Assembly (NCBI GenBank): GCA_902570915.1
Contig: CACGAB010000002.1
Location: 1-64,000 of the forward strand
DNA from: an uncultured Pelagibacteraceae bacterium
GTDB taxonomy: Bacteria; Pseudomonadota; Alphaproteobacteria; Pelagibacterales; Pelagibacteraceae
DNA length: 64,000 bases
Direction of reading: 5' to 3'
Shown here: positions 12,312-31,930 of the stretch, in pieces
Layout: every line of letters begins with the position of its first letter
How positions within the stretch are numbered: position 1 is the first letter of the stretch
Program-made: the position numbers and the translations under genes
Notes under the pieces: model-generated
Databases searched by the model: none
What the model saw: only the letters and a program-made list of their open reading frames with translations
What the model was told of the DNA's origin: nothing

Positions 12312-14363
12312 TTATTTCTTTTTGATTAGCTCAGTATTATTGATGTTTATAGCCATACAAGTAATATCATCCCTTAATTTTTCAGCACCCCAATTTAATT
12401 CTTTTTCAATAGACTCAACTATAGTTTTTGGTGTCACATCTGACATGCCATCTATGATTTTTTGCACTCCTTCTGCGCCTAATTCCTCACCATTTTTCAA
12501 ATAGCCTTCCGTTACACCATCAGTATAAACAACAAATGTCTTATCTTTAAGGTTCATAGTATTGGATTTAACCATAGACTCTGTGAAATATTTAACAATT
12601 CCAATGGGTGGCATTTCTGATTTGATATATTCATAATTTTTATTTTGATCAAAAGTCAAAATACTTTCATGCCCTGCATTAATAAATACAAGTTCTCCAG
12701 TTTTAATATTTAATTTTCCAAAAACAGCGGTCACAAACATCCCTTTAAATTTAGCCTCAACAAGCTCATTATTGACACCGAACACAACTTTTTCTAATGG
12801 AAACTTCAAGTTCGTAAGCGTTCTAAATATTGAAGATGCTTTTGCCATATACATACCCGCTTTGACCCCTTTTCCTGATACATCGGCTAATGTGAAGAAG
12901 TATTCTTCCGGGGTAGATCTTACCACATCAAAATAATCTCCCGATACGTCTCTTGCAGGAACGTTCCTTGCAAAAATAAAATTTTCAAATTTTGATATAT
13001 CTGGGAATAAGCTTTTTTGAACTCCTGCAGCTAATTCTCGTTCTTTTAATAATTTTGCCTCTTTTTGTAAATTATCTAAAGCTATTTTGTTTTCCTCAAT
13101 AAATCTAAAATAAAGACCGGTTAAGAAGGTAGCGGTTACAATAAATATAGGGTAACTCATATCTACTAATTCAGATCTAAATTTATAAATAGAAAATCCA
13201 ATAATTATGATCGCCAAAATATTTCCAAAGAAAATCGATAAACTTAGTTTTGGTTTTACTTTTTGAGATAAAATAAATGTAATTAAAGCAACGATAATAG
13301 AAAACAATAACTCAAATATATATGTGTTTGGATTTCTAACCAAATACGATTGGTCCAAAATATTTTCAATAACATTAGCATGAACTTCAACTCCTGGTAT
13401 AGTTACCCCAAGAGGAGTTTTAACTAAATCGAATAAGCCTTGTGCTGACGCGCCAATTAAAACATATTTGTCTTTAAAAAAATCTGTTTGAAATTTACCA
13501 TCATAAACATCTCCAGCAGAAATATATTGGTTTTTATCTGACTTTTTATATTTAATCCAAATGATCCCATTAGGATCGGAGTCTATTTTATGAGGTCTTG
13601 CACTAATTCTTTGAATTCCAACTTCATTTAATTCCACATAAATATTTTTTTGTTTAGAACCAACTCTAACCATCTCTAAACCCATGGTTGGATACATTTT
13701 TTTATTGAATTGAACAATTAAAGGTAGAGATCTAATGATACCGTCTAATTGATCTAAAAAAGAAATAGATCCTAATCCTTTGACATTTTTTTCTAATACT
13801 TCTAGTGAGCCTATGGAATAGGGATAAGAGTAAGTAAATTGTTTTGGTTCCCCACCTTTAGATAAAAATCTAGCTTTTGCTTTTCGATCATAATTTGAAT
13901 GCGATGGAACGTTGCTACCTAAAACAGCAATTATTGATTTAGATTCTTTCAGTTTTTCAGAAAATATATCGTCTGGACTTTTTAAATTCTGAAGTTCTGC
14001 TATGTCAGATGGAATTAAACCATATGATTTAATTATAGCATCGGGTGATTGCTTATCCTTTTCAGTGAAAAAAATATCAAAACCTATTGCCTTTGGGTTT
14101 GACTCGTTTAACTTATCTAAAATTTCTGCAAAGACAATTCTATTCCAAGGAAACTGACCAAACTTACCTAAACTTTTTTCATCAATATCTATAATTACAA
14201 CATCTGAATTTTTTTTTTCTGCAAATACTTTTTGGTAAAGATCAAAACTTAAAAATGATATTGATTTAATAAAACTTGGGTTAAGAATTTTTAAAAAAAT
14301 TAAGAGAATAAGTAAGGCAAAGAAAACTACGTAATTTAGATTTTTATGTAAAATTGCTTTCAC
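12312..14363 (-). CDS. CHASE2-sensor PP2C (SpoIIE-type) serine phosphatase
   Basis: A 683-residue membrane protein. After an N-terminal membrane segment, residues about 35-330 form a CHASE2 extracytoplasmic sensor (VVIIDIDEKSLGKFGQFPWNR, GFDIFFTEKD). Three membrane helices follow (about 345-435), then a short coiled linker and a SpoIIE/PP2C phosphatase domain (about 465-680) with metal-binding aspartates in SGDYFD, ADVSGKG, VYTDGVTEG and DDITCM. Such phosphatases dephosphorylate STAS-domain antagonists in partner-switching systems; the STAS and kinase genes at 20.9-21.6 kb are the obvious candidates. It lies downstream of the FecR gene (59 bp gap) and upstream of the propeller genes. The signal sensed is unknown. 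Confidence 0.9.
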   Translation of the reverse strand: MKAILHKNLNYVVFFALLILLIFLKILNPSFIKSISFLSFDLYQKVFAEKKNSDVVIIDIDEKSLGKFGQFPWNRIVFAEILDKLNESNPKAIGFDIFFTEKDKQSPDAIIKSYGLIPSDIAELQNLKSPDDIFSEKLKESKSIIAVLGSNVPSHSNYDRKAKARFLSKGGEPKQFTYSYPYSIGSLEVLEKNVKGLGSISFLDQLDGIIRSLPLIVQFNKKMYPTMGLEMVRVGSKQKNIYVELNEVGIQRISARPHKIDSDPNGIIWIKYKKSDKNQYISAGDVYDGKFQTDFFKDKYVLIGASAQGLFDLVKTPLGVTIPGVEVHANVIENILDQSYLVRNPNTYIFELLFSIIVALITFILSQKVKPKLSLSIFFGNILAIIIIGFSIYKFRSELVDMSYPIFIVTATFLTGLYFRFIEENKIALDNLQKEAKLLKERELAAGVQKSLFPDISKFENFIFARNVPARDVSGDYFDVVRSTPEEYFFTLADVSGKGVKAGMYMAKASSIFRTLTNLKFPLEKVVFGVNNELVEAKFKGMFVTAVFGKLNIKTGELVFINAGHESILTFDQNKNYEYIKSEMPPIGIVKYFTESMVKSNTMNLKDKTFVVYTDGVTEGYLKNGEELGAEGVQKIIDGMSDVTPKTIVESIEKELNWGAEKLRDDITCMAININNTELIKKK

Positions 14364-14422
14364 AAATCAAATTTATAGGTAATTGGATTAAAGTAAATAA
14401 ATCTTATTTACGAAAGATCTTT

Positions 14423-15697
14423 TTATTTTTTTCTTGTTCTTTTCTTTTTAGCTTTTCTCTTCTTAGCAGCTCTTTTCTTCTTCACTACTCTTTTCTTTTT
14501 AACGATTTTTTTCTTAGGTTTCTTCTTAACTACTTTTTTCTTCTTTTTCGGTTTTTTCTTCACTGCTTTTTTCTTTTTAGCTGGCTTTTTCTTTACTGCT
14601 TTTTTCTTTTTAGCTGGCTTTTTCTTAGTAGCTTTTTTCTTAGTAGCTTTTTTCTTCGTAGCTTTTTTCTTAGCAGGTTTTTTCTTAGTTACTTTTTTCT
14701 TTTCAGTTTTTGTTACTTTTTTCTTAACAGCTTTTTTCTTTTTACCTTTTTTACCTTTTTTGGCTTTTTTCTTCTTACCTTTTTTCTTACCTTCGTCTAA
14801 TTTAGCTTTTTTCTTTTGCTTTTTAGCTTTTGCTTTTGCTTTCTGAGCTTTTTTCTTTTCTGCTCTTTCAGCTTTAATCGCTACTTTCTTCTCTTTATCT
14901 TTTTGAATGTTCTCTTTAATTATTGTTTTAATTTCTTCTTTTTCAAAACCTAGTGCTTTTAGTTCTTTTTTAAGATTTTTTCTTAATTGTTTTCTCTCAG
15001 CTTTAGTCTCATTAGGAGATAGCTTGGCTACTCTAAGAGCTTTCATTTTTTTATTAAATTTCTTTAATTGATTTTTAGTAATTTTTTTCGCTTGACCTGG
15101 CGCTTTTCCTTTGGTCATCGAAGTCATACTATACGGGTTATCTAATAAAGTTTGACCAAGATTATTTCCAACTAAAACTGCTCCTGGTCTCATACCTAAG
15201 GTATTATTTTTTCCTGGACCAATTAATAAAGTATCTGTTTTTCCTTTTGAAACTATAGTTTGAAATTCTGTTCCTCTTGAACCTAAAGTTCCCTCAGGAA
15301 CTTCGACTGTAAGGCTGTCAGGATTTTTTTTACTTATTAATCCTGAAATAACTTTTAAACTTCCTTGTTTTACGCTTGCAACGATTTTTCCATCATTTGT
15401 TTCTGGATCAAAAATAAAAGTATCCATCACAACTTCAGAGTCTTCACCAACTGTAAAAGTTGACTGATCTAATAATAAAATCTGTGTACCTGAACCTGGT
15501 GCAGCATAAATCGTTTCATTTAAATAAATTTTATCGCCAGCCTTTAACTGTCTTGTTTCAGTTTTTACCGTTCCAGATATGGCTCCAACTATTCCAACAA
15601 GTTGCTTTTCAATGCTAAGCTTCTCAGCAGAATTCACTTGAGAAGAAAGAATTAAAAATAGCCCAATGACTGCACTTAAAATTTTTTTCATTACCAT
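14423..15697 (-). CDS. Exported FecR-domain protein with long lysine-rich tail
   Basis: 424 residues with two possible ATG starts (15697, 15691) before a signal peptide ending near VNSA. Residues about 28-165 form a FecR domain (AISGTVKTETRQLKAGDKIY, ILLLDQSTFTVGEDSEVVMD, EVPEGTLGSRGTEF), here without the usual membrane anchor of sigma regulators. From about residue 215, and especially 270-424, the protein is dominated by Lys/Ala with repeats such as KKKATKKKATKKK, like histone H1-type tails. FecR domains often occur beside CHASE2 proteins, as here. The tail may bind polyanions such as peptidoglycan, LPS or extracellular DNA; this is speculation. The large plus-strand ORF over the tail is an artefact of its composition. 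Confidence 0.82.
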   Translation of the reverse strand: MVMKKILSAVIGLFLILSSQVNSAEKLSIEKQLVGIVGAISGTVKTETRQLKAGDKIYLNETIYAAPGSGTQILLLDQSTFTVGEDSEVVMDTFIFDPETNDGKIVASVKQGSLKVISGLISKKNPDSLTVEVPEGTLGSRGTEFQTIVSKGKTDTLLIGPGKNNTLGMRPGAVLVGNNLGQTLLDNPYSMTSMTKGKAPGQAKKITKNQLKKFNKKMKALRVAKLSPNETKAERKQLRKNLKKELKALGFEKEEIKTIIKENIQKDKEKKVAIKAERAEKKKAQKAKAKAKKQKKKAKLDEGKKKGKKKKAKKGKKGKKKKAVKKKVTKTEKKKVTKKKPAKKKATKKKATKKKATKKKPAKKKKAVKKKPAKKKKAVKKKPKKKKKVVKKKPKKKIVKKKRVVKKKRAAKKRKAKKKRTRKK

Positions 15698-17171: not shown

Positions 17172-19325
17172 CTATTTTCCAATACTTATTACTGTTAAAT
17201 CATCATCCAGTTTTTGGTTTTTGCTTGTATTTATTACCATTCTAGTTATGTCACTTAATTGTTGTTTTGTATCTTTGTTGTAATTAGCCTCAATTATATC
17301 TATTGATCCATCTATACCTATTTCATTTCCTTTATCATTTAAACTTTCAGACAGTCCATCTGTAAATGCATAAAATCTTGAGCCATTTAGTTTCATCTTA
17401 TTAATATTATAAATACTTTTGTCTTTCTGTTTGATAACACCTAAGGGAGGCGCTGAACTTTGAAACTGTTCGTATTTTCCATTATCATTTCTGACAATTG
17501 CAGGCTGATGACCTGCGTTTACCCATCTAATTTCATCAGTAATTAAATTGTATTCACCAATTATTGAAGTTACAAACATTCCACCAGTTTTAGTATTATT
17601 TAAATCATTATTCATATGTAAAACCATTTCATCTGGATCTACTTTTGATTGAGATAAAACTTCGAATAAAGTAGATGCTTTTGCCATAACCATTCCAGCA
17701 TGAATACCTTTGCCAGCAACATCAGCAATTATAAAATAAATGCTATCATTGTGAGGATAGAAACTAAAGAAATCACCTGAGACCTCTCTAGCTGATAAGT
17801 TTATTCCGTACACAGGATAATTTTTTAAATTTCTTTTTGGTAAAAAGTTTTCTTGAACTTTTACAGCTAATTTAACCTCTTTAGAAATTCTTTCACGCCA
17901 CTTGTTTTTTTCCTCTTCTGTTGTTTCAAGCTTGCTCATTAACTTATTATAATAAAGACCAATCACACCACCAGCGGTAAACGGATCTTGAGGCCCCCTT
18001 ACTTTAAGATCTCCAGATTCTGATTGTTTGTTTAAAATTGAAATTAAATCATGCTCAATTGAAACTGCATTATGTTCTGCAATATTTAATCCTAATTCCT
18101 CTTGAACGGTACTTACTCTTAATGGATAAAATTTGTTTACAAAACTCAAAATTATAAATGATGAAATAAATGTAAATGATCCGATTGCTAAAATTCCTAT
18201 TAATTGAATTTTAATTTGTGAAAATCTATCAAGACCAGTATCTAAAATATTTAAATCGCTAAAAAACCCGACAGCTAAAGTTCCCCAAATACCAGCAGCC
18301 AAATGAACTGGAACAGCACCAACAACATCGTCAATTTCAAATTTGTTTAAAAGTTCATTTACAAAAATTGCAATAATCGAACCAATGATGCCAACAAAAA
18401 TTGCGGTGACAGATGTCATTGAATTACATCCTGCAGTAATTGCAACTAAACCTGCTAACGGACCTAAAATAATATAAAAAGGATCGGGTTTCTTGTGTTT
18501 AAAATATGAAATACCTAATCCAGTTAATAAACCAAAAGCAGCAGCTAAAAATGTATTAATTAAAATTAAAGGCACTACTTCATCCATTGCACCGTTACTT
18601 CCGCCATTAAAACCAAACCAACCAAACCACAAAATGAGTGTACCTAAAACAGCAAGTGGAAAACTAGATCCAGTAAATTTTCCTTTATTAGCATTGGAGT
18701 ATTTGCCAATCCTTGGCCCCAAAATAATTACTGCTGCTAACGCAATCCATCCACCTACAGAATGTACAATAGTACTTCCAGCAAAATCAACAAAGCCTAG
18801 ATCTGAAAGCCATCCAGTTGTTCTTACTGAACCAGTAACAACTAGTAACTGATCTACCGTATCATATTTTGAAAGATAGCTTGAAGACCACGCCCAATGA
18901 CCAACTATGGGATAAATTATTCCAGTAGCTAAAACAGTCATAATCAAATAACCATTAAATTTCATTCTTTCAGCAACAGCACCAGAAATAATTGTTGCAG
19001 CCGTTGCAACAAACATTGCTTGGAATACAAAGTAAGTCATGTACTCCGCTTTGTTAGTTTTAAAAAAAAATAAATCAGTGCCAAAAAAACCGTAATAAGA
19101 AGTACCAAACATGATACCAAAACCAAATATCCAAAAAATAACTACAGATACTCCAAAGTCTGCAGCATTTTTAAGGGCAACATTAATGCTATTTTTATGC
19201 CGTGATAAACCAGTTTCCATGCACATGAAACCCGCTTGCATTATAAAAACTAGAATTGCGCAATCTATCACCCATAAAGTATCAATGTTACTTGTTAGTA
19301 CATCAATTACTTCTTGGGGCATCAT
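17172..19325 (-). CDS. Ammonium transporter (Amt) fused to PP2C (SpoIIE-type) serine phosphatase
   Basis: 717 residues in one uninterrupted frame. Residues about 1-410 form an Amt/Rh channel with the usual eleven-helix pattern. Both pore histidines appear present, in DFAGSTIVH (near 188) and PVHLAAGIWG (near 340), as are the aromatic gate segments (FVATAATIISG, WFGWFGFNGG). After a linker of about 90 residues comes a PP2C domain with the metal sites SGDFFSF, ADVAGKG, FTDGLSE and DDDLTVIS. The fusion implies an ammonium sensor or transceptor whose cytoplasmic output is dephosphorylation of a STAS protein. Known Amt fusions use histidine kinase or GGDEF outputs. It lies 9 bp downstream of the lipoprotein gene. 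Domain assignment is firm; the sensing role is inferred. Confidence 0.93.
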   Translation of the reverse strand: MMPQEVIDVLTSNIDTLWVIDCAILVFIMQAGFMCMETGLSRHKNSINVALKNAADFGVSVVIFWIFGFGIMFGTSYYGFFGTDLFFFKTNKAEYMTYFVFQAMFVATAATIISGAVAERMKFNGYLIMTVLATGIIYPIVGHWAWSSSYLSKYDTVDQLLVVTGSVRTTGWLSDLGFVDFAGSTIVHSVGGWIALAAVIILGPRIGKYSNANKGKFTGSSFPLAVLGTLILWFGWFGFNGGSNGAMDEVVPLILINTFLAAAFGLLTGLGISYFKHKKPDPFYIILGPLAGLVAITAGCNSMTSVTAIFVGIIGSIIAIFVNELLNKFEIDDVVGAVPVHLAAGIWGTLAVGFFSDLNILDTGLDRFSQIKIQLIGILAIGSFTFISSFIILSFVNKFYPLRVSTVQEELGLNIAEHNAVSIEHDLISILNKQSESGDLKVRGPQDPFTAGGVIGLYYNKLMSKLETTEEEKNKWRERISKEVKLAVKVQENFLPKRNLKNYPVYGINLSAREVSGDFFSFYPHNDSIYFIIADVAGKGIHAGMVMAKASTLFEVLSQSKVDPDEMVLHMNNDLNNTKTGGMFVTSIIGEYNLITDEIRWVNAGHQPAIVRNDNGKYEQFQSSAPPLGVIKQKDKSIYNINKMKLNGSRFYAFTDGLSESLNDKGNEIGIDGSIDIIEANYNKDTKQQLSDITRMVINTSKNQKLDDDLTVISIGK

Positions 19326-20887: not shown

Positions 20888-21187
20888 ATGACTTATAAAG
20901 TAACAGAAGATGGAAATATCAGTACAGTATTTCTTAATGGCGAAATAGACATGGACGTGACCGAAAAAGCAAAAGAGGTCATTTTACCTATAGTAGAATC
21001 TGGAAAAGAAGTTCATTTAAACTTAAAAGATGTTTCCTACATGGACTCGTCAGGAATTTCTGTTTTAATTGAAAGTCATCAAAAAGCTTTAGAGCATAAT
21101 ACTAAAGTCATTGTTAAAGAGGTAAGTAAATCTGTTTTAAAAGTAATTATGATGGCAAAACTTGAACAGATTTTAAACTTGGAATAA
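20888..21187 (+). CDS. STAS-domain anti-anti-sigma-like protein (SpoIIAA/RsbV type)
   Basis: 99 residues, the usual size of a single STAS domain. The phosphorylatable site is intact in YMDSSGISVLI (Ser54/Ser55), the place where RsbW-type kinases phosphorylate and PP2C phosphatases dephosphorylate. It starts with ATG after a 171-bp spacer and its stop overlaps the next start as TAATG, so it is coupled to the kinase gene. The partner phosphatases are probably the three SpoIIE-type proteins in this window. The downstream target (a sigma factor or another protein) is not visible. Confidence 0.93.
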   Translation: MTYKVTEDGNISTVFLNGEIDMDVTEKAKEVILPIVESGKEVHLNLKDVSYMDSSGISVLIESHQKALEHNTKVIVKEVSKSVLKVIMMAKLEQILNLE

Positions 21188-21600
21188 TGAATATTGAAGA
21201 GTCTAAAGATTTCCTTGTAAGCACTGCCAGCTTGAAAGAAGTGAGAACTTTTTCTAGAGAAGTATTTGAAAAAATAAATTTACCCCAAGAACAAAAAGAT
21301 GAACTTGTATTAGCAATCGCTGAGGCTGCACAAAATATTGTTAAACACGCTTATAAAGATGTTGCAGAAACATCAGACAGAATGGAAATTAAAATTTCAC
21401 TTAAAGATAGTGACTTAGAGATAGGTTTCTTTGATAAAGGCAAAGCAGTAATACCAGAAAATATTCAACACAGAAAATTAGATGACATTAAACCAGGTGG
21501 TCTTGGTACTTTTTTTATTAAGCAAATTATGGATGCAGCGGTTTTTAAAAAAGACCAAAAAGAGTGGGTAAACCATTTGGTGCTTACCAAAAAAATTTAA
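21187..21600 (+). CDS. RsbW/SpoIIAB-like serine kinase (anti-sigma-type HATPase)
   Basis: 137 residues forming a GHKL ATPase domain. The N box is LVLAIAEAAQNIVKHAYKD, the G1 region contains FFDKGKA, and the G2 region is KPGGLGTFFIKQIMD. The size and the adjacent STAS gene mark it as the switch kinase of a partner-switching system rather than a two-component histidine kinase, since no HisKA domain exists. It is translationally coupled to the STAS gene and its 3' end overlaps the convergent pilC stop by 4 bp. In such systems the free kinase usually binds a sigma factor; here the partner is unknown. Confidence 0.92.
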   Translation: MNIEESKDFLVSTASLKEVRTFSREVFEKINLPQEQKDELVLAIAEAAQNIVKHAYKDVAETSDRMEIKISLKDSDLEIGFFDKGKAVIPENIQHRKLDDIKPGGLGTFFIKQIMDAAVFKKDQKEWVNHLVLTKKI

Positions 21601-22835
21601 CCTATCAACGCTCCAACGTTGAAAATTGGTGAATACATTGCAATCATTAATCCACCGATCATAACACCCATAAACACAATCATTATCGGTTCAATTAAAC
21701 TAGACATATTATCAACTGCACCATCAAACTCTTCTTCATAATACATCGCAACAGAACCAAACATTTCATCTAGCTGACCTGTTTGTTCACCAACAGAAAT
21801 TAATTGACTAAAAGTCGGGGGGAAGAGTGGTTCTTTTAAAAATAATTTTGTCAAAGTATCTCCAGAAAAAACTCCCTTCTTAACATTTTCCAAAGCTTCT
21901 GTTACAACCACATTATTACTTACTGATTTTGCAATCTCTATACTTTCCAATAAATTTACTCCGGCTGCACTCAAATTTCCCATTATCAATGAAATTCTTG
22001 CAAGTAATGACTTTAGTATTAAGTCACCAAATACTGGCAACTTTAAAATTTGTTTATGCCATCTATATTTAATCATTTCATTTTTAGAAGTTAAATATCT
22101 AAATGCGATAATCGAGGTAATTATAGTTATTAATAACACCATTCCACCTGTGCCTCTTAAAAAGTCACTCATAGACATAATAACAGCTGTTGGAGTTGGT
22201 AAATCTAAACCCATTCCAGCATACATTTTTGCAAATACTGGAACGACTTTTATTAACATAAATGCACTAACAGTTATTGCTACTGAAAACATTATAGCCG
22301 GATACATCAATGCAGATTTTATTTTCTTTTTTATTTTTTCTTTTTTTTCTAAAGAGTCGACAATCTTTAATAAAAACACATCTAATTTACCACTGGCTTC
22401 ACCTGCTTTTATAAGATTACAATAAACATTATCAAAATATTCAGGATATTTTTCAAAACATTTAGATAGAGTTACACCCCCTTCAAGGCTTTTTCTAATA
22501 TCCTCGATTACTTCTTTTATTGCTGGACTTTCTAACTGATCTCTTAGCATGGCTAAAACTTCGAGAATTGGTAAGCCTGCTTTAACCATGGTTGCAAACT
22601 GCTTTGAAAAAATTAAGACATCCTCTACTTTTACTTTTTTCTTACCAAAAGAGAAACCCCCACCACTTTTTGACTTAGTTTTAGTTTCTCCCTTTTTCTT
22701 TTTTGATCTTATTAAGTTTGTGATTATAATTTTTTGTTCTTTAAGCTTATGTGATGCCTCTTCCTGATTGATAGCTTCAATATCACCCTCTACATATTTG
22801 CCATCAGCAATGCCTTTATAAGTAAATGCTTCCAT
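21597..22835 (-). CDS. pilC: Type IV pilus inner-membrane platform protein PilC
   Basis: 412 residues, normal for the PilC/GspF family. Two repeated helical cytoplasmic domains (FSKQFATMVKAGLPILEVL at about 80 and LLARISLIMGNLSAAGVNLLES at about 280) are separated and followed by membrane helices. A short N-terminal domain begins with FTYKGIADGKYVEGDIEA, typical of PilC. It anchors the assembly ATPase to the membrane. It follows pilB by 21 bp and ends the pilMN-O-P-Q-B-C operon. PilC is preferred to GspF because of the surrounding pilus genes. Confidence 0.94.
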   Translation of the reverse strand: MEAFTYKGIADGKYVEGDIEAINQEEASHKLKEQKIIITNLIRSKKKKGETKTKSKSGGGFSFGKKKVKVEDVLIFSKQFATMVKAGLPILEVLAMLRDQLESPAIKEVIEDIRKSLEGGVTLSKCFEKYPEYFDNVYCNLIKAGEASGKLDVFLLKIVDSLEKKEKIKKKIKSALMYPAIMFSVAITVSAFMLIKVVPVFAKMYAGMGLDLPTPTAVIMSMSDFLRGTGGMVLLITIITSIIAFRYLTSKNEMIKYRWHKQILKLPVFGDLILKSLLARISLIMGNLSAAGVNLLESIEIAKSVSNNVVVTEALENVKKGVFSGDTLTKLFLKEPLFPPTFSQLISVGEQTGQLDEMFGSVAMYYEEEFDGAVDNMSSLIEPIMIVFMGVMIGGLMIAMYSPIFNVGALIG

Positions 22836-22856: not shown

Positions 22857-24608
22857 TTATGAGGCTGATAAAACCCGCTCGTATTCTCTAAAATTCAGCT
22901 CTCCATTAGCAATTAGCCTTCTTCCCATATCTTGCATAGTTTGAAAACCCTCTTTAATTGCTATTTCTCTCAATTCAGGTGTTGTTGCTTTTCTAAGTAT
23001 TGCCTCTTTAACTGGTTTTGAAACAACTAAAATTTCGTAAAGACCTTGTCTACCCTTATAACCAGTATCTTTACACTTAGGACAGCCTTTCCCTTTAAGA
23101 GCTTTAACTCTAGAAGCTAATTCTGCTGTAAAGCCAAGATCTTGCAAAACTTTTGGATTAACATCATCATCAGGAACTCTACAATCTTTGCAAGTCCTTC
23201 TTGCTAATCTTTGTGCTAAAACCATTTGGCATGCAGCACTAATTAAATAATCAGGAGTGCCCATGTTTTGTAATCTAGTTATGGTGCTTGGAGCATCATT
23301 CGTGTGCAAAGTACTAAATACTAAGTGACCAGTGAGTGCAGCTTTTAATCCGATATCAACTGTTTCCTTATCTCTCATCTCACCAACAAGTATTATTTCT
23401 GGGTCTTGTCTTAAAAAAGATCTCAATGCCGCAGCAAAACTTAATCCAATGTCATCTTTAATCTGGACTTGTCCTACACCATCTAGCTCATATTCAACAG
23501 GATCCTCAGCTGTTAGAATATTTAAGTGAGGCTTACTCACCTCTTTTAAAATACTATAAAGAGTTGTTGATTTACCAGATCCTGTTGGTCCAGTTACTAG
23601 TATTAAACCTTGAGTTCCATGAATTGCTTTTCTTAAATTCTGTAAATCAACATCTTCAAAATTTAATTGCTCTAAAGTAATGTCACCAGCATCTTTATTT
23701 AAAACCCGCATTACTATTCTCTCATTATTAGCTGTCGGTAAAATCGATAAACGTAAATCAACAACTTTACCATCTATCTTAAAATTTATTGCTCCATCTT
23801 GAGGTAATCTTCTTTCAGCAATATCTAATTTACCCATTATTTTAAATCTGGTAACAACCGCTCCATAATTATCATGAAGAAATTTTTTATATTGCTCTTG
23901 CTCTTGGAGCATTCCGTCTAATCTATATCTAACTCTTGAGCTAAATCTGTATGGTTCGATATGAATATCACTAACACCTGATTTAATAGCTTCTGCTACA
24001 ACTGCTGTACTAAATTTTATTACTTCCGACTCATTTTCAATTGCTTCAATATCTTCTTCTGGAGCTTTTTCTAAAACTTCGCCCGCTTCACCTAAATCAG
24101 AGTCAAAGGTTTTTGTTTTCTCTTTATTCTCTTGTCTAATTGTTGCAGTTGTAACGTCTCCACTTTCTGATTGAAGTTTTTCAATAAACTCTGAAATTTG
24201 AGAAACTTTTGCAGCATGTAGCTCTATATTTTTTTTTGTAATTGCTTTTAAATTTCTCATAAGACCAAGCTTTGAACTATCTGAAATTGCAATGTGAAGA
24301 GTTTTACCCTCAACTTTAAAAGGCGCTACAAAATTTACGTTTATGTAATTTGAAGGCAGCACACTTTTAATTTCATCGCTTATTTGAATTTTAGAAAGAT
24401 CTACAATTTCAAGACTTTGTTCTTTTACTAAAACATCTAAAATTTTATTTTCGTCAGTTAACTTAAGTTCAAATACTGCATCTATTTGAGATTTATTTCC
24501 CTCAGTACTTATCTTTTTAATGTTAATTAAATCTTTTCCAGAAATAATATCATTATCAATTAATACATTGATTAAATTTATTTCACTTTCTCTACTTATT
24601 TTTAGCAT
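22857..24608 (-). CDS. pilB: Type IV pilus assembly ATPase PilB
   Basis: 583 residues. The N-terminal MshE/GspE-like domain (about 1-160) is followed by the secretion ATPase: Walker A GPTGSGKSTTLYS, Asp box, Walker B-like ILVGEMRDKET, and His box TGHLVFSTLHTNDA. A tetracysteine zinc motif is present (RRTCKDC and KGCPKCKDTGYKG), as in extension ATPases and unlike PilT. It powers pilus extension. It directly abuts pilQ with no spacer (24608/24609). Confidence 0.95.
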   Translation of the reverse strand: MLKISRESEINLINVLIDNDIISGKDLINIKKISTEGNKSQIDAVFELKLTDENKILDVLVKEQSLEIVDLSKIQISDEIKSVLPSNYINVNFVAPFKVEGKTLHIAISDSSKLGLMRNLKAITKKNIELHAAKVSQISEFIEKLQSESGDVTTATIRQENKEKTKTFDSDLGEAGEVLEKAPEEDIEAIENESEVIKFSTAVVAEAIKSGVSDIHIEPYRFSSRVRYRLDGMLQEQEQYKKFLHDNYGAVVTRFKIMGKLDIAERRLPQDGAINFKIDGKVVDLRLSILPTANNERIVMRVLNKDAGDITLEQLNFEDVDLQNLRKAIHGTQGLILVTGPTGSGKSTTLYSILKEVSKPHLNILTAEDPVEYELDGVGQVQIKDDIGLSFAAALRSFLRQDPEIILVGEMRDKETVDIGLKAALTGHLVFSTLHTNDAPSTITRLQNMGTPDYLISAACQMVLAQRLARRTCKDCRVPDDDVNPKVLQDLGFTAELASRVKALKGKGCPKCKDTGYKGRQGLYEILVVSKPVKEAILRKATTPELREIAIKEGFQTMQDMGRRLIANGELNFREYERVLSAS

Positions 24609-26147
24609 CTATAGAATCCTTGGTGCGATAAAAACTAATAATTCATCCATATTATCAGTATTCTGTTTTCCTTTAAATAAATTTCCAACAACCGGAACAT
24701 CTCCTACACCAGGAGTTTGTTGCTTGCTGTTAGTTAAAGCATTCTTTTTAATACCACCTATAACTACAATATCGCCATCAGCTATTAATAATTTTGTGCT
24801 AATTTCCATTTTATTGATTGCAGGATCTCCTGGATTAGATCTATTAGGAGTATCATTATTAACTTGGATATCCAAAAGAACGTTTCCATCTCCAATAATG
24901 CTTGGTGTAACAGTCATTTTTAATGCTGCTTCTTTAAAAGAAGTATCTGACCCTTCTGCTGAACTAGAAGCGTAAGGTATTTCTTCACCTTGTGTGATAG
25001 TTGCGACCTGATTATCTAAAGTAAATATTTTTGGATTAGATATAGTTTTTCCAAGCCCCTGGGACTCAAGTGCAGTTATTTCGGTCTTTAAAACTGCTGA
25101 TCCTGTCTTCTTTAATATTCCAATACCACTTGTCTTACCGGCTGCTCCAAAATTTGTTATTGAGTCAGTAGTGGAGCCTATAACAGCAGTAGCTGCACCT
25201 ATGTCTGCATCTCCTGATGATCCTGCTTGAACACCACCTATTATCTCACCCTGTCTTCTGTAGTATCCGCCAAGAGCAGTGCCTAAAGCTCTTTCAAAAT
25301 CAGAATTAGCCTCAACAATAAAAGCTTCAATTAAGACTTGTCTTGTTCTAACATCAATTTCTTTAATTATTTTATCAACTACGTCTAAATCTTTTTCTTT
25401 TCCTCTTGCAATAATCGATCTTGTAGTTTTTTCTTCAGTAATTTGAACTAAAGAGATTCCACCATCAACTGCTTTAAATAACTCATCTAAAGTAGCTTTG
25501 GCCTCAGCAGGACTTATGTAATAGAGTCTAAATATTTCTGAAATTAATGGCTCAACAGAGTCCTCTAATTCAACTTTTTTTCTAACAGCAGAAGCTCTTG
25601 CTGATTTTGTAGATTCTTGTTGAGTTAAATTTGATGGAGAATGAACTCTTATTAAATTACTTTGAACATCAAAATCAGCTGCATAGTTTTTTAGATCTAA
25701 AAGCGCATTAAAAGCTTTGTCCCACGGAATATCAATCAATTGTGCTGTGACCGAGCCGGCAACTTCATCACCTATGAGGATATTTATCTCACCTGCTTTT
25801 GCCATCAGTTCTATTGCAGTTCTATAATCTAGATTTTTAAAATTAAATGAAATATTTTGCTTTAATAATTTATATTCGTCACCAATTAGCAAATAGTTTC
25901 TTGCTTTTTGTGAAGAAATTTGTTTTCTTTTACCAAGTTTAATTACGTCAGCCTCAGCTGGTTTTGGCCCCATCTTAGCAGTTTTATCAACTTCTATTTT
26001 ACCTTTCTTCTTGATGTCATCTTTTATTAAAGGAGTGTTGTGTTTAAATTTTTTTGTTCCAAATTTACCGTCAGTAGCACAACCACTTAAAAGCAAAGCT
26101 GAAAAAATGCTAAATAAAATAAAAAATTTAATATTTTTAAAATTCAT
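24609..26147 (-). CDS. pilQ: Type IV pilus secretin PilQ (MshL-like lipoprotein)
   Basis: 512 residues with a lipoprotein signal (FSALLLSGCATDG). A short secretin-type N domain (ISFNFKNLDYRTAIELMAKAG) and the secretin C-domain (QVLIEAFIVEANSDFERALG, GLGKTISNPKIFTLDNQVATI, ELLVFIAPRIL) follow. It forms the outer-membrane pore for the pilus. It is shorter than classic PilQ (about 700 residues) and lacks AMIN domains, resembling the MSHA secretin MshL. Its start overlaps the pilP stop by 11 bp. Confidence 0.93.
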   Translation of the reverse strand: MNFKNIKFFILFSIFSALLLSGCATDGKFGTKKFKHNTPLIKDDIKKKGKIEVDKTAKMGPKPAEADVIKLGKRKQISSQKARNYLLIGDEYKLLKQNISFNFKNLDYRTAIELMAKAGEINILIGDEVAGSVTAQLIDIPWDKAFNALLDLKNYAADFDVQSNLIRVHSPSNLTQQESTKSARASAVRKKVELEDSVEPLISEIFRLYYISPAEAKATLDELFKAVDGGISLVQITEEKTTRSIIARGKEKDLDVVDKIIKEIDVRTRQVLIEAFIVEANSDFERALGTALGGYYRRQGEIIGGVQAGSSGDADIGAATAVIGSTTDSITNFGAAGKTSGIGILKKTGSAVLKTEITALESQGLGKTISNPKIFTLDNQVATITQGEEIPYASSSAEGSDTSFKEAALKMTVTPSIIGDGNVLLDIQVNNDTPNRSNPGDPAINKMEISTKLLIADGDIVVIGGIKKNALTNSKQQTPGVGDVPVVGNLFKGKQNTDNMDELLVFIAPRIL

Positions 26148-26643
26148 TTGCCTCTTTTATTTGGTTTTTAAAATTCATAATTATGTACTGGTTATCATCA
26201 GCTTTTTCGAAAACTGCTCTTTTTATACTAACGTCAACAAGTTTCACACCACTTAAGACTTCTTCAAATAATTCTACCGTCATAAATTCACCATTGTCAT
26301 CAACTAAAGTAATGAAACTATTATCTTTAGCAGAAAATGATCCAACGAGTTTATACGATCTTAGTTTTACTGCACTTGATGTAGGTGTTACCTCTGTTAC
26401 TATGTCACTAGCTGTTGACGCATCACCAGCAAATGGATCATTTAAAGGCAACGGTTCTTCTTTTACTACAATTTGACCTGTTTCTTTACTAATGTTTTCT
26501 TGTTGTGATGCCTGCTTCTCTTTAACTTGTTTATTAATCTCTTTTGCTTTTTCAACAATGTTTTGATCGTGACTATCTGACATTACTTTCTGTGAGAAAG
26601 TAATAACTATTAAAACCAAGAATATGAGTCTAAAAAAATTCAT
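26137..26643 (-). CDS. pilP: PilP-like pilus assembly protein
   Basis: 168 residues with an N-terminal signal sequence (RLIFLVLIVITFSQKVMS), a low-complexity Gln/Glu/Lys linker, the motif PLNDPFAGD, and a small beta-rich domain (SYKLVGSFSAKDNSFITLVDDNGEFMTV). This matches PilP and its relatives, which link the inner-membrane PilMNO complex to the secretin. No lipobox cysteine is seen, unlike many PilP proteins. It sits exactly between pilO and pilQ with overlaps at both ends. Confidence 0.8.
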   Translation of the reverse strand: MNFFRLIFLVLIVITFSQKVMSDSHDQNIVEKAKEINKQVKEKQASQQENISKETGQIVVKEEPLPLNDPFAGDASTASDIVTEVTPTSSAVKLRSYKLVGSFSAKDNSFITLVDDNGEFMTVELFEEVLSGVKLVDVSIKRAVFEKADDNQYIIMNFKNQIKEANEF

Positions 26644-27331
26644 CTGGTAAACCCACTATTGTTAATACACCAGTTACTGCTACCGTACTGGTTGTATCCC
26701 CTTTTATCACTTTAATTGTTTCTTTGTCAAAATTTAACATTTTTTGAGACATAGCTACTTGTCTCTTAAACTTAATATATCCAAGAAAATTGCCCTTTAT
26801 TTGAAAATTTACAGGTATTCTGTAATACGCAATATTTTTTTTAACACTGGTGTCAGCTTTCTTCTTTCTTTTTCTCTTTTTCTTCTTTTTCTTTGTATCA
26901 GTAGAGGCAATAGCTGATGCCTTTGTTATAGGCTTTGGTTTGCCCTTTTCAATCTTTGAAATAACTAAGTTGTTTATCCCAGCGAATTCACTAAGTGTCT
27001 CATAAAGACCTTCCACCTCAGCTTTACTGTGAAATAAAGTAGAATATTGCTCGTATCGAGGAGTAAGTTTTTTTATTTTAGCTTTACTAGCTTTAATTTC
27101 TTGGTTCATCTTTGTTATCTCAGCTTGTTTTTTTTGCATGTTATCCAACTGAGCTTTTTTCTTCTCAACAATTGGGCTTAAAACCGCGTAATAAATAATT
27201 AAAAAAACAATTACTGATAAGAATCCAATACCAAATTTAATTAGAATTTTTTTATCTATAGATTTAATTTTAGCTTTTACACTTTCTAGGTTGATGTTCT
27301 TTAAATCTAAACTAATATTCTTTAAATCCAT
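26630..27331 (-). CDS. pilO: PilO-like pilus assembly protein
   Basis: 233 residues: a cytoplasmic stub, one membrane helix (FGIGFLSVIVFLIIYYAVL), a periplasmic coiled coil (KKKAQLDNMQKKQAEITKMN) and a ferredoxin-like C-terminal domain (AYYRIPVNFQIKGNFLGYIKFKRQ-like). This is the PilO pattern. A lysine/arginine-rich insert (KKKKKKRKRKKK) interrupts the periplasmic part at about residue 145, an unusual feature. It begins 3 bp after the pilM-pilN stop, and its end overlaps pilP. Confidence 0.85.
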   Translation of the reverse strand: MDLKNISLDLKNINLESVKAKIKSIDKKILIKFGIGFLSVIVFLIIYYAVLSPIVEKKKAQLDNMQKKQAEITKMNQEIKASKAKIKKLTPRYEQYSTLFHSKAEVEGLYETLSEFAGINNLVISKIEKGKPKPITKASAIASTDTKKKKKKRKRKKKADTSVKKNIAYYRIPVNFQIKGNFLGYIKFKRQVAMSQKMLNFDKETIKVIKGDTTSTVAVTGVLTIVGLPDEFF

Positions 27332-27334
27332 AAA

Positions 27335-29662
27335 TTATCCCTTAACATCCACAAAAACTGTAAAGTTCTTTTTAATATCAGCAGAGTCCCCAGCCTTACC
27401 TTTGTAATTCATTTTACCTAATGATGCTTGTACAACTAACTGCTGCGCCCCTAAATTATTAATTAACTTCAAAATGTCTTGATCGGTAGCAGCCTGACCT
27501 TTTATAATTACTTTATTTTTGCCATTGTATTCAACTGACGCAAATTTTATTCTTTTAGGAACACTCATAGCAATTTGAGCTAAAACTCTATAACTATTCT
27601 GCTTATTTGATTTTAAACTTTTACTCAATTTTAAGGTATTTGAAATTATAGCTAACTCTTTTTTAATTTTCTTTTGTTCAGATATTTTAGCTTTATGAGT
27701 TTTTAGGACAGTATTGTAATTAACTAGTTTTTTATTGTATGATTGGATGTTCCAGAAAGATAAGCCAAAAAGAATTATATATATTGCAGCTACTGAAGCA
27801 GCTATACCTTTGAAAGCAAAACTTGAAAAAGCTTTCATCTTTTTTTCTTTAATCATGCCTTTTCTGTTAGGAAGTAAGTTTATATTTTTAACGGCGGTAA
27901 CAAATTTATAATAGCCAAATACATCCAACTTTCTAAAAGCAAGACCTACAACTGACGATAGATATGATCTGTTAATTAAATCTACTTTTTCTTTATTTTG
28001 CTGAGGGATTAACAATCCATCAATTGGATCAAATAAGTTAAAGCCAACATTTAATAAACCCTTTCTAAAACTTGACAAAAAATCCTCAACATTTTTTAAA
28101 TCCGAGACTACTTTTATGTTTCTTATTCTTTTCTCATATTTGGTCTCAAAATCTTGAACAGCTTGTTTTACTTGAGTTAAAAATCTTCTTACTAATGCCT
28201 CTTTTTCTTCAACATCCTGTGATTCTAATAATATTTTTCTATCTTGGCCTCTTAAAAAAATATCAGTAATTATTGGATTATTGTCGTATAAAATCATTAA
28301 ATAATTTTCATCTAAACCAAATTCCAAAACCGCAGTAAGATTTACATCGTCAGCTTTATTGGAGATTTGATTAATTTGATCGACAGCAGATTTTAATGCA
28401 AAACATTTTACATCAATTATAACTGGGTTGAGATTACTTTGCTTGATTATTGAGGTATAATTATTTATGTCAGCCAATTTTGAAGCAACAAACAAAATAT
28501 CCATTGTGTTAGCTTTTTCGTTTCTATTAATAACTTGATGGAAAATTGAATAATCGTCTAAATTATCAGTTAACTGAACTAAATTTTCCCAAAGTGAATT
28601 AGTTTCAATTGCTTTTTGCAATTCCTCTTCTTTCATCAACGGTGCTGTTACAACTCTAATAATTGCGCTTGTGACAGGTATAGCAATAGCAGCATTTAAA
28701 GTTGTGATTTTAGATTTTTGTAATGCAATTGTAAGTTCTGCTCCTAATTTTTCTCCATTATCTAAAACATTTGCGTCATCTGGTAAGTCAACTGGGTGCG
28801 CATAAAATTTATCCAATACCCATTGATTTGATTTATTAGTTGATACTTGGGCTAATCTTATTTCTTTGTTTGTAATTTCAACTCCAACAATTTCCTCTCC
28901 TTTAACTGCTGACTTTCCAATTTTAGATTTAAAAAAGCTAGTAACTTTTTTCGAAAGTTCATTAGTTTTGAGTGATGGTTTGGAAACTGAACTTTTTTCT
29001 AAGAAGCTTGGCTTTTTAAATTTAATATTTTTTATATTGTCTAAAAAAGCAAATTTTGATTTTTTATTTTCTTGTTCGTCCTCTGTTGATTGATTTAAAA
29101 TAGAAGCGTCAATTTTAGGTTCGGTTAACGTAGTTGTTTGACTCGTTTGTTCTTTATTAACAATTTGAGTTGAAGTTTCCGGTTGAACAGATGTTTCTTC
29201 AGTTTTAACAGGTTGCTCTTGAATTTCTTTTTCTTTTTCTTTTCCCGCAACAACGTCGTCAAACCATTTTTCTAAAATTGGTATTGCTTCCTCCAAATTA
29301 GGAGTTCCTGATGATGAAATTTTTTGTTTTCCATCATGATAAAGTCTCCCAACCCAATTTTTTGATTTTAATTCACCTTTGTATTTGTCTTGTCGGATAT
29401 AAATATGTAACCTTCCGTCTTTCTTATGGATTACCTCATGTGAGGATCCATTATCTTCATCTTTTTTTTCACTAGATGTATCTAAATTTTGTGTTTGATC
29501 ATTATTTTCGTTATTATTTTGATTTGATTCAGAGACAGGATCATTTTTTTGATTATCTACACCCTCAGGTTGATTATTTTCATCAACTTTAGATTGATTC
29601 TCAGTTTCTGACTGAGACCTTTCCTCTTCAATAATTTTTTTTTCGTCGTCTTGATCGTTCAT
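27335..29662 (-). CDS. Fused PilM-PilN pilus assembly protein with extra N-terminal domain
   Basis: About 775 residues from ATG 29662 (the track starts 6 nt earlier at a TTG). Residues about 1-75 are Gln/Asn/Asp/Glu-rich and disordered. About 80-140 form a small domain, RLHIYIRQDKYKGELK...WVGRLYHDGKQKISSSGT..EEAIPILEKWFDD, resembling AP2-like/arm-type domains of phage integrases. A second disordered stretch follows. PilM, an actin-like protein, covers about 255-600 (EEIVGVEITNKEIRLAQVS, TLNAAIAIPVT). PilN covers about 610-775 (INLLPNRKG, one membrane helix, coiled coil). PilM and PilN are usually separate genes. It is the first gene of the pilM-N-O-P-Q-B-C operon, just downstream of the TCTAACACA repeats. 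Confidence 0.88.
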   Translation of the reverse strand: MNDQDDEKKIIEEERSQSETENQSKVDENNQPEGVDNQKNDPVSESNQNNNENNDQTQNLDTSSEKKDEDNGSSHEVIHKKDGRLHIYIRQDKYKGELKSKNWVGRLYHDGKQKISSSGTPNLEEAIPILEKWFDDVVAGKEKEKEIQEQPVKTEETSVQPETSTQIVNKEQTSQTTTLTEPKIDASILNQSTEDEQENKKSKFAFLDNIKNIKFKKPSFLEKSSVSKPSLKTNELSKKVTSFFKSKIGKSAVKGEEIVGVEITNKEIRLAQVSTNKSNQWVLDKFYAHPVDLPDDANVLDNGEKLGAELTIALQKSKITTLNAAIAIPVTSAIIRVVTAPLMKEEELQKAIETNSLWENLVQLTDNLDDYSIFHQVINRNEKANTMDILFVASKLADINNYTSIIKQSNLNPVIIDVKCFALKSAVDQINQISNKADDVNLTAVLEFGLDENYLMILYDNNPIITDIFLRGQDRKILLESQDVEEKEALVRRFLTQVKQAVQDFETKYEKRIRNIKVVSDLKNVEDFLSSFRKGLLNVGFNLFDPIDGLLIPQQNKEKVDLINRSYLSSVVGLAFRKLDVFGYYKFVTAVKNINLLPNRKGMIKEKKMKAFSSFAFKGIAASVAAIYIILFGLSFWNIQSYNKKLVNYNTVLKTHKAKISEQKKIKKELAIISNTLKLSKSLKSNKQNSYRVLAQIAMSVPKRIKFASVEYNGKNKVIIKGQAATDQDILKLINNLGAQQLVVQASLGKMNYKGKAGDSADIKKNFTVFVDVKG

Positions 29663-29772
29663 ATACAATTTAAAATTTTTTCTCTAACACAATTTAACGA
29701 ATCTCTAACACAAAATATTACTTTAGTCTAACACAAAATTATAAAATATATGTTCAAAATGAGCTAAATAGT

Positions 29773-29949
29773 AAAAAAGTCAACAAAATAGCCATTTTTT
29801 ACAAATTAAAATAATTTATAAATATAAAATTTTAAATCTAGATTTAAATAAACTCTAACACAAATCATAAATATTTAATTGTGTTAGAGTATTTCTATTT
29901 TGTGTTAGAATATTCAATTTTAATTTTTTATTAAAAAAGTCAATAAAAT
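29773..29949 (+). repeat. Direct repeat AAAAAAGTCAAYAAAAT, two copies
   Basis: Copies at 29773-29789 and 29933-29949 differ at one base in 17 and are 160 bp apart. They flank the central inverted pair of the TCTAACACA array, one on each side, which adds to the sense of a structured control region. Confidence 0.5.
29831..29848. repeat. 18-bp perfect palindrome
   Basis: TTTAAATCTAGATTTAAA is a perfect palindrome directly beside copy four of the array. It is a candidate binding site for a dimeric regulator, although AT-rich palindromes arise easily by chance. Confidence 0.5.
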
Positions 29950-30086
29950 CAACAAAAAGTAAAATTATTCTAAATTTGGAATTTTTTGTGTTAGAGTTTT
30001 AGATTTATGTGTTAGAGTTTAATATTTTCACTCTATTACACTCAAAAATTGTAAATTCTATATTTAATTTATGAAAAATTTATTTA

Positions 30087-30527: not shown

Positions 30528-31877
30528 TTATGCTCCGTCTACAACAACAATAGTCAGATCATCTTTTTGAATACGACCAGACTTAATTATATCCTCAACA
30601 ATTTTATTTAATCTTTCGTGATTAGGTGTTTGTTGATACTTTGTAATATAATTTTTGAAACCATCGGACTCTAACATGTTACCTTTAGGATCTTTCATTT
30701 CTGTTATACCATCAGTGAATACATACATCGAACTTTCAGAAAATTTTATTTTTGTCTCTTTGTATTTAATCTTCGACATAATTCCTAAAGGCGGACCTGC
30801 TTCACTAAAGTTTGTAAATTTTCCATCTTTAGAATGAATTAGTGGTGGTTCATGTCCTGCGTTAGCAAGTAGTAATTCTTTTTTATTACTGTCGTAAATA
30901 CCTATAAGCATTGTTACAAACATTCCACGTGCAGCTGTTTCACAAATTTCAGAATTAAGTAAGTTTAATAAATCAGCAGCAGAAAAAATTGTTTTACTTA
31001 AGCATCGATAAAGACTCGAAGCCTTTGACATTAAAAGGGAAGATTTAATTCCTTTACCAGATACATCTGCAACACCAAAACCAAATTTACCATCACCTAG
31101 ATCAGAAAAATTATAAAAATCTCCTGATACAACTTTTGCTGGGATGTTTATTCCTGCTATAGGAAAGTTTTCTTTTTTATTTTGTGACAACAAAGTTTTT
31201 TGTATCTCACCAACAATTTCAATTTCTTTTTGCATTCTATTCTTATCAACTAAATCTTTTGCCATCTTAGCATTGTTTATTGCTAATGCAGCTGGACCAG
31301 ACAAAGTTTCTAAAAGTTTTCTATCATTCTCTTCAAAAAGTTTATTGTTAGTTTTTTTATTTAAGCAATGAATAACGCCAATACATTCATCCGATACAAT
31401 TAAAGGGGAACATAGAACTGAATAAGTTGTAAAATTTGTTTTATTATCTAAATCGAAATAAAATTCTGCAATTTCTCTAATATCTTTTCTAACATCACCA
31501 ACTCTAATACATTTTTTCATGACTGCAGCTTTTCCCATAACTCCTTGAGTAATTGGGATTTCAAAATCTTCAAGATATGCTTGATGTTTTGAAGCAATAC
31601 ATTGGAACGATTGATTTTTTTTATCTATTAAAAAAATATTTGCTGCTTGTGCATTAATTCTTTTTATAATTAATTCTAATGAGTTATTAAGTGTTTCTTT
31701 TAAATCAAGAGACATTGCAAACTCTTGATTCATTTTAGTTACCAGCTCTAAATCTTTACTGCTAGTGTCATCTATTTTGATCGTTTCCTTTTTTTTTACT
31801 CCAAAAAACATGTTATTTATAAATTGATATTCGTTATTTTTTTGATAATTTTGAAATTGATGGAAATCATTATTCAT
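30528..31877 (-). CDS. GAF-sensor PP2C (SpoIIE-type) serine phosphatase
   Basis: About 449 residues from ATG 31877 (the track uses GTG 31898); a GGCG-like purine stretch precedes the ATG. No membrane segment is seen, so it is cytoplasmic. A GAF domain covers about residues 60-200 (INAQAANIFLIDKKNQSFQC, YSVLCSPLIVSDECIGVIHCLN). The PP2C domain covers about 240-449 with SGDFYNF, ADVSGKGI, VFTDGITEM and DDLTIVVV, all metal sites present. It is the third partner-switching phosphatase in the window and lies between the pilus operon and pilD. The GAF ligand is unknown; small molecules or cyclic nucleotides are usual for the fold. Confidence 0.92.
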   Translation of the reverse strand: MNNDFHQFQNYQKNNEYQFINNMFFGVKKKETIKIDDTSSKDLELVTKMNQEFAMSLDLKETLNNSLELIIKRINAQAANIFLIDKKNQSFQCIASKHQAYLEDFEIPITQGVMGKAAVMKKCIRVGDVRKDIREIAEFYFDLDNKTNFTTYSVLCSPLIVSDECIGVIHCLNKKTNNKLFEENDRKLLETLSGPAALAINNAKMAKDLVDKNRMQKEIEIVGEIQKTLLSQNKKENFPIAGINIPAKVVSGDFYNFSDLGDGKFGFGVADVSGKGIKSSLLMSKASSLYRCLSKTIFSAADLLNLLNSEICETAARGMFVTMLIGIYDSNKKELLLANAGHEPPLIHSKDGKFTNFSEAGPPLGIMSKIKYKETKIKFSESSMYVFTDGITEMKDPKGNMLESDGFKNYITKYQQTPNHERLNKIVEDIIKSGRIQKDDLTIVVVDGA

Positions 31878-31930
31878 GCGCCTAATTTCTATTTGCACCT
31901 AACTGATGCAATTATGTTAGTACAATACTG

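Follow-up and report, generated by a model that had tools for sequence, protein, structure and literature searches.

The pilMN locus

The window analysed here, a stretch of 64,000 nucleotides, derives from an uncultured member of the Pelagibacteraceae (SAR11). It carries a pilMN-O-P-Q-B-C operon on the minus strand, the first gene of which begins with an ATG at 29662. The features of the operon are as follows.

27335..29662, minus strand: pilMN fusion gene, 775 amino acids, with an N-terminal integrase-type domain predicted to bind DNA
29441..29662, minus strand: acidic disordered N-terminal segment (residues 1-74), hypervariable (conservation over 87 sequences)
29252..29440, minus strand: predicted arm-binding (integrase N-terminal) domain (residues 75-137), nearly invariant
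28898..29251, minus strand: long variable linker (residues 138-255)
27893..28897, minus strand: PilM (actin-like) domain (residues ~256-590; PilM_2, TIGR01175)
27338..27889, minus strand: PilN part (residues 592-775; Pfam PilN at 692-768)
26630..27331, minus strand: pilO, from a weak PilO/T2SSM match below cutoff and its operon position
26137..26643, minus strand: probable pilP, without a family match and placed by operon position only
24609..26147, minus strand: pilQ secretin (TIGR02515, 3.8e-90)
22857..24608, minus strand: pilB ATPase with an MshEN domain (Pfam)
21597..22835, minus strand: pilC platform protein (Pfam)

PilM and PilN are fused in this chain, as the earlier note had proposed. 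The Pfam profiles PilM_2 (residues 260-464, E 2.7e-17) and PilN (E 7e-5) both match the one open reading frame above their curated cutoffs, and the TIGR01175 match lies below its cutoff (77 of 133 bits). Within the PilN part, an INLLP peptide at residues 594-598 and a membrane segment at ~616-640, followed by a periplasmic domain, can be read from the sequence. The fusion is intact in more than 100 relatives and is thus no sequencing artefact; the relatives are uncultured Pelagibacteraceae. It is less of an oddity, however, than had been claimed. Relatives from the same order (L165, L166) have the fusion without the extra domain, and the architecture is that of GspL of type II secretion, in which a PilM-like cytoplasmic domain and a PilN-like periplasmic domain share a single chain with one membrane segment (PMC3724824). 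PilM itself is cytoplasmic and forms part of a ring which PilN anchors (PMC3724824, PMC13039148). Taken alone, therefore, the fusion is GspL-like and ordinary. With the type IVa PilM/PilN platform it has in common the PilM_2 and PilN domains, the INLLP peptide and the gene order M-N-O-P-Q together with B and C, the operon encoding PilO, PilP, PilQ, PilB and PilC; it differs in being one chain and in bearing an N-terminal domain of DNA-binding type with linkers. We know of no GspL with such an N-terminal domain or with a cognate DNA array.

A nearly invariant N-terminal domain

The small domain which the earlier note had placed between disordered acidic segments stands out clearly. Residues 75-136 are 92-100% conserved, against ~30-60% for the flanks, the acidic character of which is evident from sequence (means of 15-residue blocks, 87 aligned sequences). 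Four-fold synonymous sites within the domain have a conservation of 0.52 compared with 0.44-0.53 in other conserved parts of the gene. This normal synonymous variation indicates that selection acts on the domain at the level of the protein, and it rules out hyper-conservation of the DNA or a recent gene conversion.

Searches of Pfam, NCBIfam and PDB sequences returned no named family for the domain, nor any significant match to Pfam arm families or to solved arm or AP2 structures. The N-termini of the homologous integrases described below are likewise without a match to these families and structures, so that this test does not separate the PilMN domain from integrases. In PHROGs there is a single weak match, to phrog_17986 (function unknown, 5e-4), and no homologue of the domain was found in phage records or viral-contig scans. 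AlphaFold models (pLDDT ~80) predict strands at 8-11 (short and extra), 16-25, 28-40 and 43-48 and a helix at 54-69, a layout in line, the extra short strand apart, with the three strands and helix described for arm-binding domains (PMC8138268). Foldseek comparison of two models with the PDB gave no significant match, AP2 and arm folds included. The AP2-like character put forward in the earlier note is therefore unproven as a fold name, and the kinship to integrases rests on sequence, not on fold matching.

The same domain heads tyrosine integrases

Tyrosine integrases carry an N-terminal arm-binding domain, with which they bind short arm-type sites in the DNA next to the att core. A profile of the PilMN domain gave 73 strong hits over 399 SAR11 genomes, nearly all on PilMN. 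In genome G181, in whose assembly no PilMN was found, a 422-residue protein (L150) begins with the same domain (59% identical) and matches Phage_integrase at 9.8e-8. A separate order-wide scan around G766 returned G766 alone. Another order-wide scan added a 418-residue protein (L204, genome G478) with a domain 61% identical over 57 residues to that of the window and a Phage_integrase match of 1.3e-7; a class-wide scan added a distant integrase, L211, by profile match, the relatives of which are located on rhizobial and caulobacter plasmids. Weak genome matches L205-L209 (440-454 residues) and L210 are by their sequences sensor-kinase-like and CoA-transferase-like, respectively, rather than integrases, and are attributed to chance.

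Alignment of a PilMN-only profile with an integrase-only profile gave a probability of 95.1 (E 3e-8), and profile comparison ties the domain to integrase N-termini of other alphaproteobacteria. The arm likeness noticed in the earlier note is thus upheld as homology, and kinship between the N-terminal domain of PilMN and those of integrases is, on these comparisons, practically certain. With the arm domain of lambda Int, Tn916 Int and SXT-type integrases (PMC8138268) it has in common the N-terminal position, a length of ~60 residues, predicted strands with a C-terminal helix, repeated arm-like sites beside the gene, and direct homologues in integrases of SAR11 and other alphaproteobacteria. The SAR11 version differs in being fused to a pilus platform without recombinase domains, and in having no significant match to Pfam arm families or solved arm structures.

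Genome G478 holds both forms of the domain, the integrase L204 on contig G478:C3 and a PilMN (L220) on G478:C2; the mobile element and the pilus promoter of this organism may thus influence each other.

An array of sites upstream of pilMN

Immediately upstream of pilMN lies the repeat array to which the earlier note had drawn attention.

29683..30016, both orientations: array of eight exact TCTAACACA/TGTGTTAGA sites spanning 334 bp
Site positions: 29683+, 29704+, 29727+, 29854+, 29880-, 29901-, 29987-, 30008-

The sites follow the non-palindromic consensus tTGTGTTAGAg in an A/T-rich setting. Neighbouring sites are mostly ~21-23 bp apart, equivalent to two helical turns, and the array faces outwards from a centre and extends far upstream of the promoter. 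The rest of the window has no exact TCTAACACA, against 0.61 expected for 64 kb, and the 948-kb genome has only three outside the array compared with 12 for a reversed control; no further clustered target was found in it. Upstream regions of the main clade, 86 in number, contain 558 exact sites and 14 one-mismatch variants, and those of ten domain-less relatives contain no exact site before pilMN. The site is kept while the layout of the array varies between clades and genera, and the array stays before its own operon even beside different upstream genes. A role at the level of RNA was set aside: with sites in either orientation, and with sites lying upstream of the predicted promoter, DNA is the simpler target. 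At two loci (L221, L162) extra sites lie 385-890 bp upstream of pilMN, which suggests a duplication of the array or an inserted gene.

The array and the domain occur together. When genomes with two neighbouring exact sites are scored as array-positive, 68 of the 399 genomes qualify and all 68 carry the domain, whereas the array is found in none of 326 domain-negative genomes (Fisher 2e-71 over the 399 genomes, relatedness not corrected for). Each of the five domain-positive genomes without a site pair can be explained: G181 has only the integrase form, the sites of G210 and G271 are spaced differently, and the contigs of G320 and G380 stop 8 and 33 bp upstream, respectively. At one locus (L095) the domain stands without an array; the DNA upstream of it consists of an inverted stretch of the adjoining SpoIIE gene, and this contig is probably chimeric. 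On a tree of the PilM-PilN core, a domain-less clade nested beside a domain-bearing clade is without the array too. There are about two changes of state on the tree in all, so that few independent events lie behind the large co-occurrence count.

Related sites beside the integrases

Each of the two SAR11 integrases, and likewise L211, lies after the 5' part of a tRNA-Leu, with a second tRNA-Leu-like sequence downstream, as would be seen if the elements had inserted into a tRNA gene. Beside the integrases are TCTTACACA/TGTGTAAGA sites, which differ from the array site at a single base, together with one exact TGTGTTAGA. Near L150 and L204 there are three sites each with at most one mismatch, a definition fixed beforehand from the pilus array, against 0.3-0.4 expected (~1% of shuffles). 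Tandem 11-bp pairs of related sites, with two mismatches allowed, lie upstream of five of seven integrases compared with ~0.016 expected from shuffles, a figure which is partly post hoc as the 11-bp spacing was noticed before testing. Sites at the plasmid integrases L224-L227 are less similar, and two of these four are without a tandem pair. Judged by sequence and position, near-identical sites stand where arm-type sites of integrases belong. Since the adjoining integrases have the same domain, and one of them comes from an assembly in which no PilMN was found, this ties the site to the domain independently.

In both SAR11 islands a resolvase-type serine recombinase gene (L172, 17981-18691) and a complete tRNA-Leu follow the integrase; the serine recombinase beside L204 has the same start sequence as the L172 one.

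Position of the sites relative to the promoter

Two elements of a core promoter are predicted within the array.

29738..29743, minus strand: predicted -10 element, TATAAT, 2 nt before the 29727 site
~29762-29767, minus strand: predicted -35 element, weak in the window

With this promoter the 29727 site would overlap the transcription start, although the promoter calls rest on matching to a consensus in a genome very rich in A/T, and the top-scoring call of the window itself lies elsewhere. The arrangement recurs: 72 main-clade regions have a TATAAT-like element that stops two to three bases short of the proximal site, and six clade-B loci have a predicted TTGACA-17-TATTGT/TATTAT promoter with an array site inside its spacer. 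Two deep clades of PilMN with unlike array layouts thus both have a site on the predicted core promoter, positions which suit repression. Four loci (L158, L160, L161, L218) have sites upstream of the predicted promoter, at about -71/-51 or -49, an arrangement that would be compatible with activation as well. Near the predicted -35 or spacer there is an ACCCAnnnTGrnCA-like element which seems common to domain-bearing and domain-less lineages (e.g. L001, L024), and is perhaps an ancestral promoter or the site of another regulator.

A pilus platform which may control its own operon

These features suggest that, in a SAR11 ancestor, a GspL-like PilM-PilN fusion acquired at its N-terminus the arm-binding domain of a tyrosine integrase, and that TGTGTTAGA sites were multiplied or recruited before the pilMN-O-P-Q-B-C operon. 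Placed before PilM and the PilN membrane segment, the domain would be in the cytoplasm, each platform subunit presenting one copy on a linker of ~100 residues. An assembled platform of many subunits could then hold several of the eight helically phased sites together. PilMN bound at the sites which overlap the predicted promoter would most likely repress the operon, and through avidity it would be the assembled platform that binds efficiently, capping the number of machines. Overall, we consider it probable that the captured domain lets a membrane-anchored platform bind the array at its own promoter and so autoregulate, most likely as a repressor. The steps differ in strength. That the domain binds the array is highly likely. 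Some autoregulation of the operon by PilMN, which the earlier note had suggested and which the strict pairing of domain and array supports, is likely. As to its sign, we lean towards repression by PilMN, as the sites overlap the predicted core promoter. A more specific version, in which PilMN subunits arranged in a ring would clamp the eight sites through their arm domains, letting the cell count its finished pilus machines and shut the operon off without a separate regulator, is offered tentatively. These gradings of kinship, binding, autoregulation and repression are judgements.

Other readings of the pairing can be weighed against this one. The domain and array might tether the chromosomal locus to the pilus base, so as to position or segregate it or to permit co-transcriptional assembly at the membrane, and transcription would be little affected. 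A membrane-anchored protein with long linkers would suit such a role, and eight phased sites over 334 bp, facing outwards from a centre and reaching far upstream of the promoter, exceed the need of a simple operator. However, the array always precedes its own operon, whatever the upstream genes, and overlaps predicted promoter elements, and tethering of this kind seems unlikely. Much the same can be said of PilMN as an autoactivator, recruiting RNA polymerase from its bound sites and so producing positive feedback or all-or-none pilus production: sites do lie just upstream of the -35 in L158, L160, L161 and L218, but main-clade and clade-B loci have a site on the start point or within the -35/-10 spacer, which makes activation improbable.

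The domain could also be an arm for imported or phage DNA, acting in uptake or as a decoy which captures the integrase, or the integrase sites, of invaders. Near-identical sites do flank SAR11 integrases, one of them in the PilMN-bearing genome G478. The predicted cytoplasmic location nevertheless speaks against the DNA uptake envisaged in the earlier note; the sites, moreover, are concentrated at the pilus promoter and rare elsewhere, and domain and array are kept or absent together, all of which leaves this reading very improbable. It is also conceivable that an unrelated regulator reads the array, that the domain does something else and that their pairing is a coincidence of lineage, as the small number of state changes on the tree would allow; given related sites beside integrases with the same domain, one in an assembly in which no PilMN was found, we regard such a coincidence as highly doubtful.

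Autoregulation, most likely by repression, is thus preferred, and it would have parallels. The ToxR/CadC type of regulator, PutA and YopD are membrane-anchored or moonlighting autoregulators, and like them PilMN would be a membrane or structural protein controlling its own or linked genes; it differs from them in the integrase origin of its predicted DNA-binding part, which here is built into the structural platform of a pilus. SAR11 bacteria are among the most abundant marine heterotrophs and have very few regulators. With two sigma factors and four two-component systems in SAR11 (PMC13198564), self-control by a pilus machine is plausible. A search of the open-access literature, with subscription papers outside its scope, found no account of PilM from SAR11 and none of a comparable DNA-binding pilus platform; as far as that literature goes, the parts are of known kinds and the combination is new. 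If the reading is correct, a DNA-binding domain of a mobile element and its sites were co-opted together into the base of a cell-surface machine, giving a minimal coupling of machine assembly to gene expression. The prediction that the domain binds TTGTGTTAGAG is sequence-specific and offers a handle on the control of pilus number in uncultured lineages.

Genes around the operon

PilB (22857-24608) has an MshEN domain (Pfam, 8.5e-14), a family of which some members bind c-di-GMP. Around the pilus operon (12312-14363, 17172-19325, 20888-21600, 30528-31898) lie three SpoIIE-type phosphatase-like proteins and a STAS/RsbW-like kinase pair, possibly forming a partner-switching hub. One of the three apparently has a CHASE2-like sensor, one appears to be fused to an ammonium-transporter-like protein and one has a GAF domain, the last being the one covered by Pfam. 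A FecR-like exported protein (14423-15697), also identified from its sequence only, has a long Lys-rich repetitive tail which gives rise to tandem repeats at 14421-14859.
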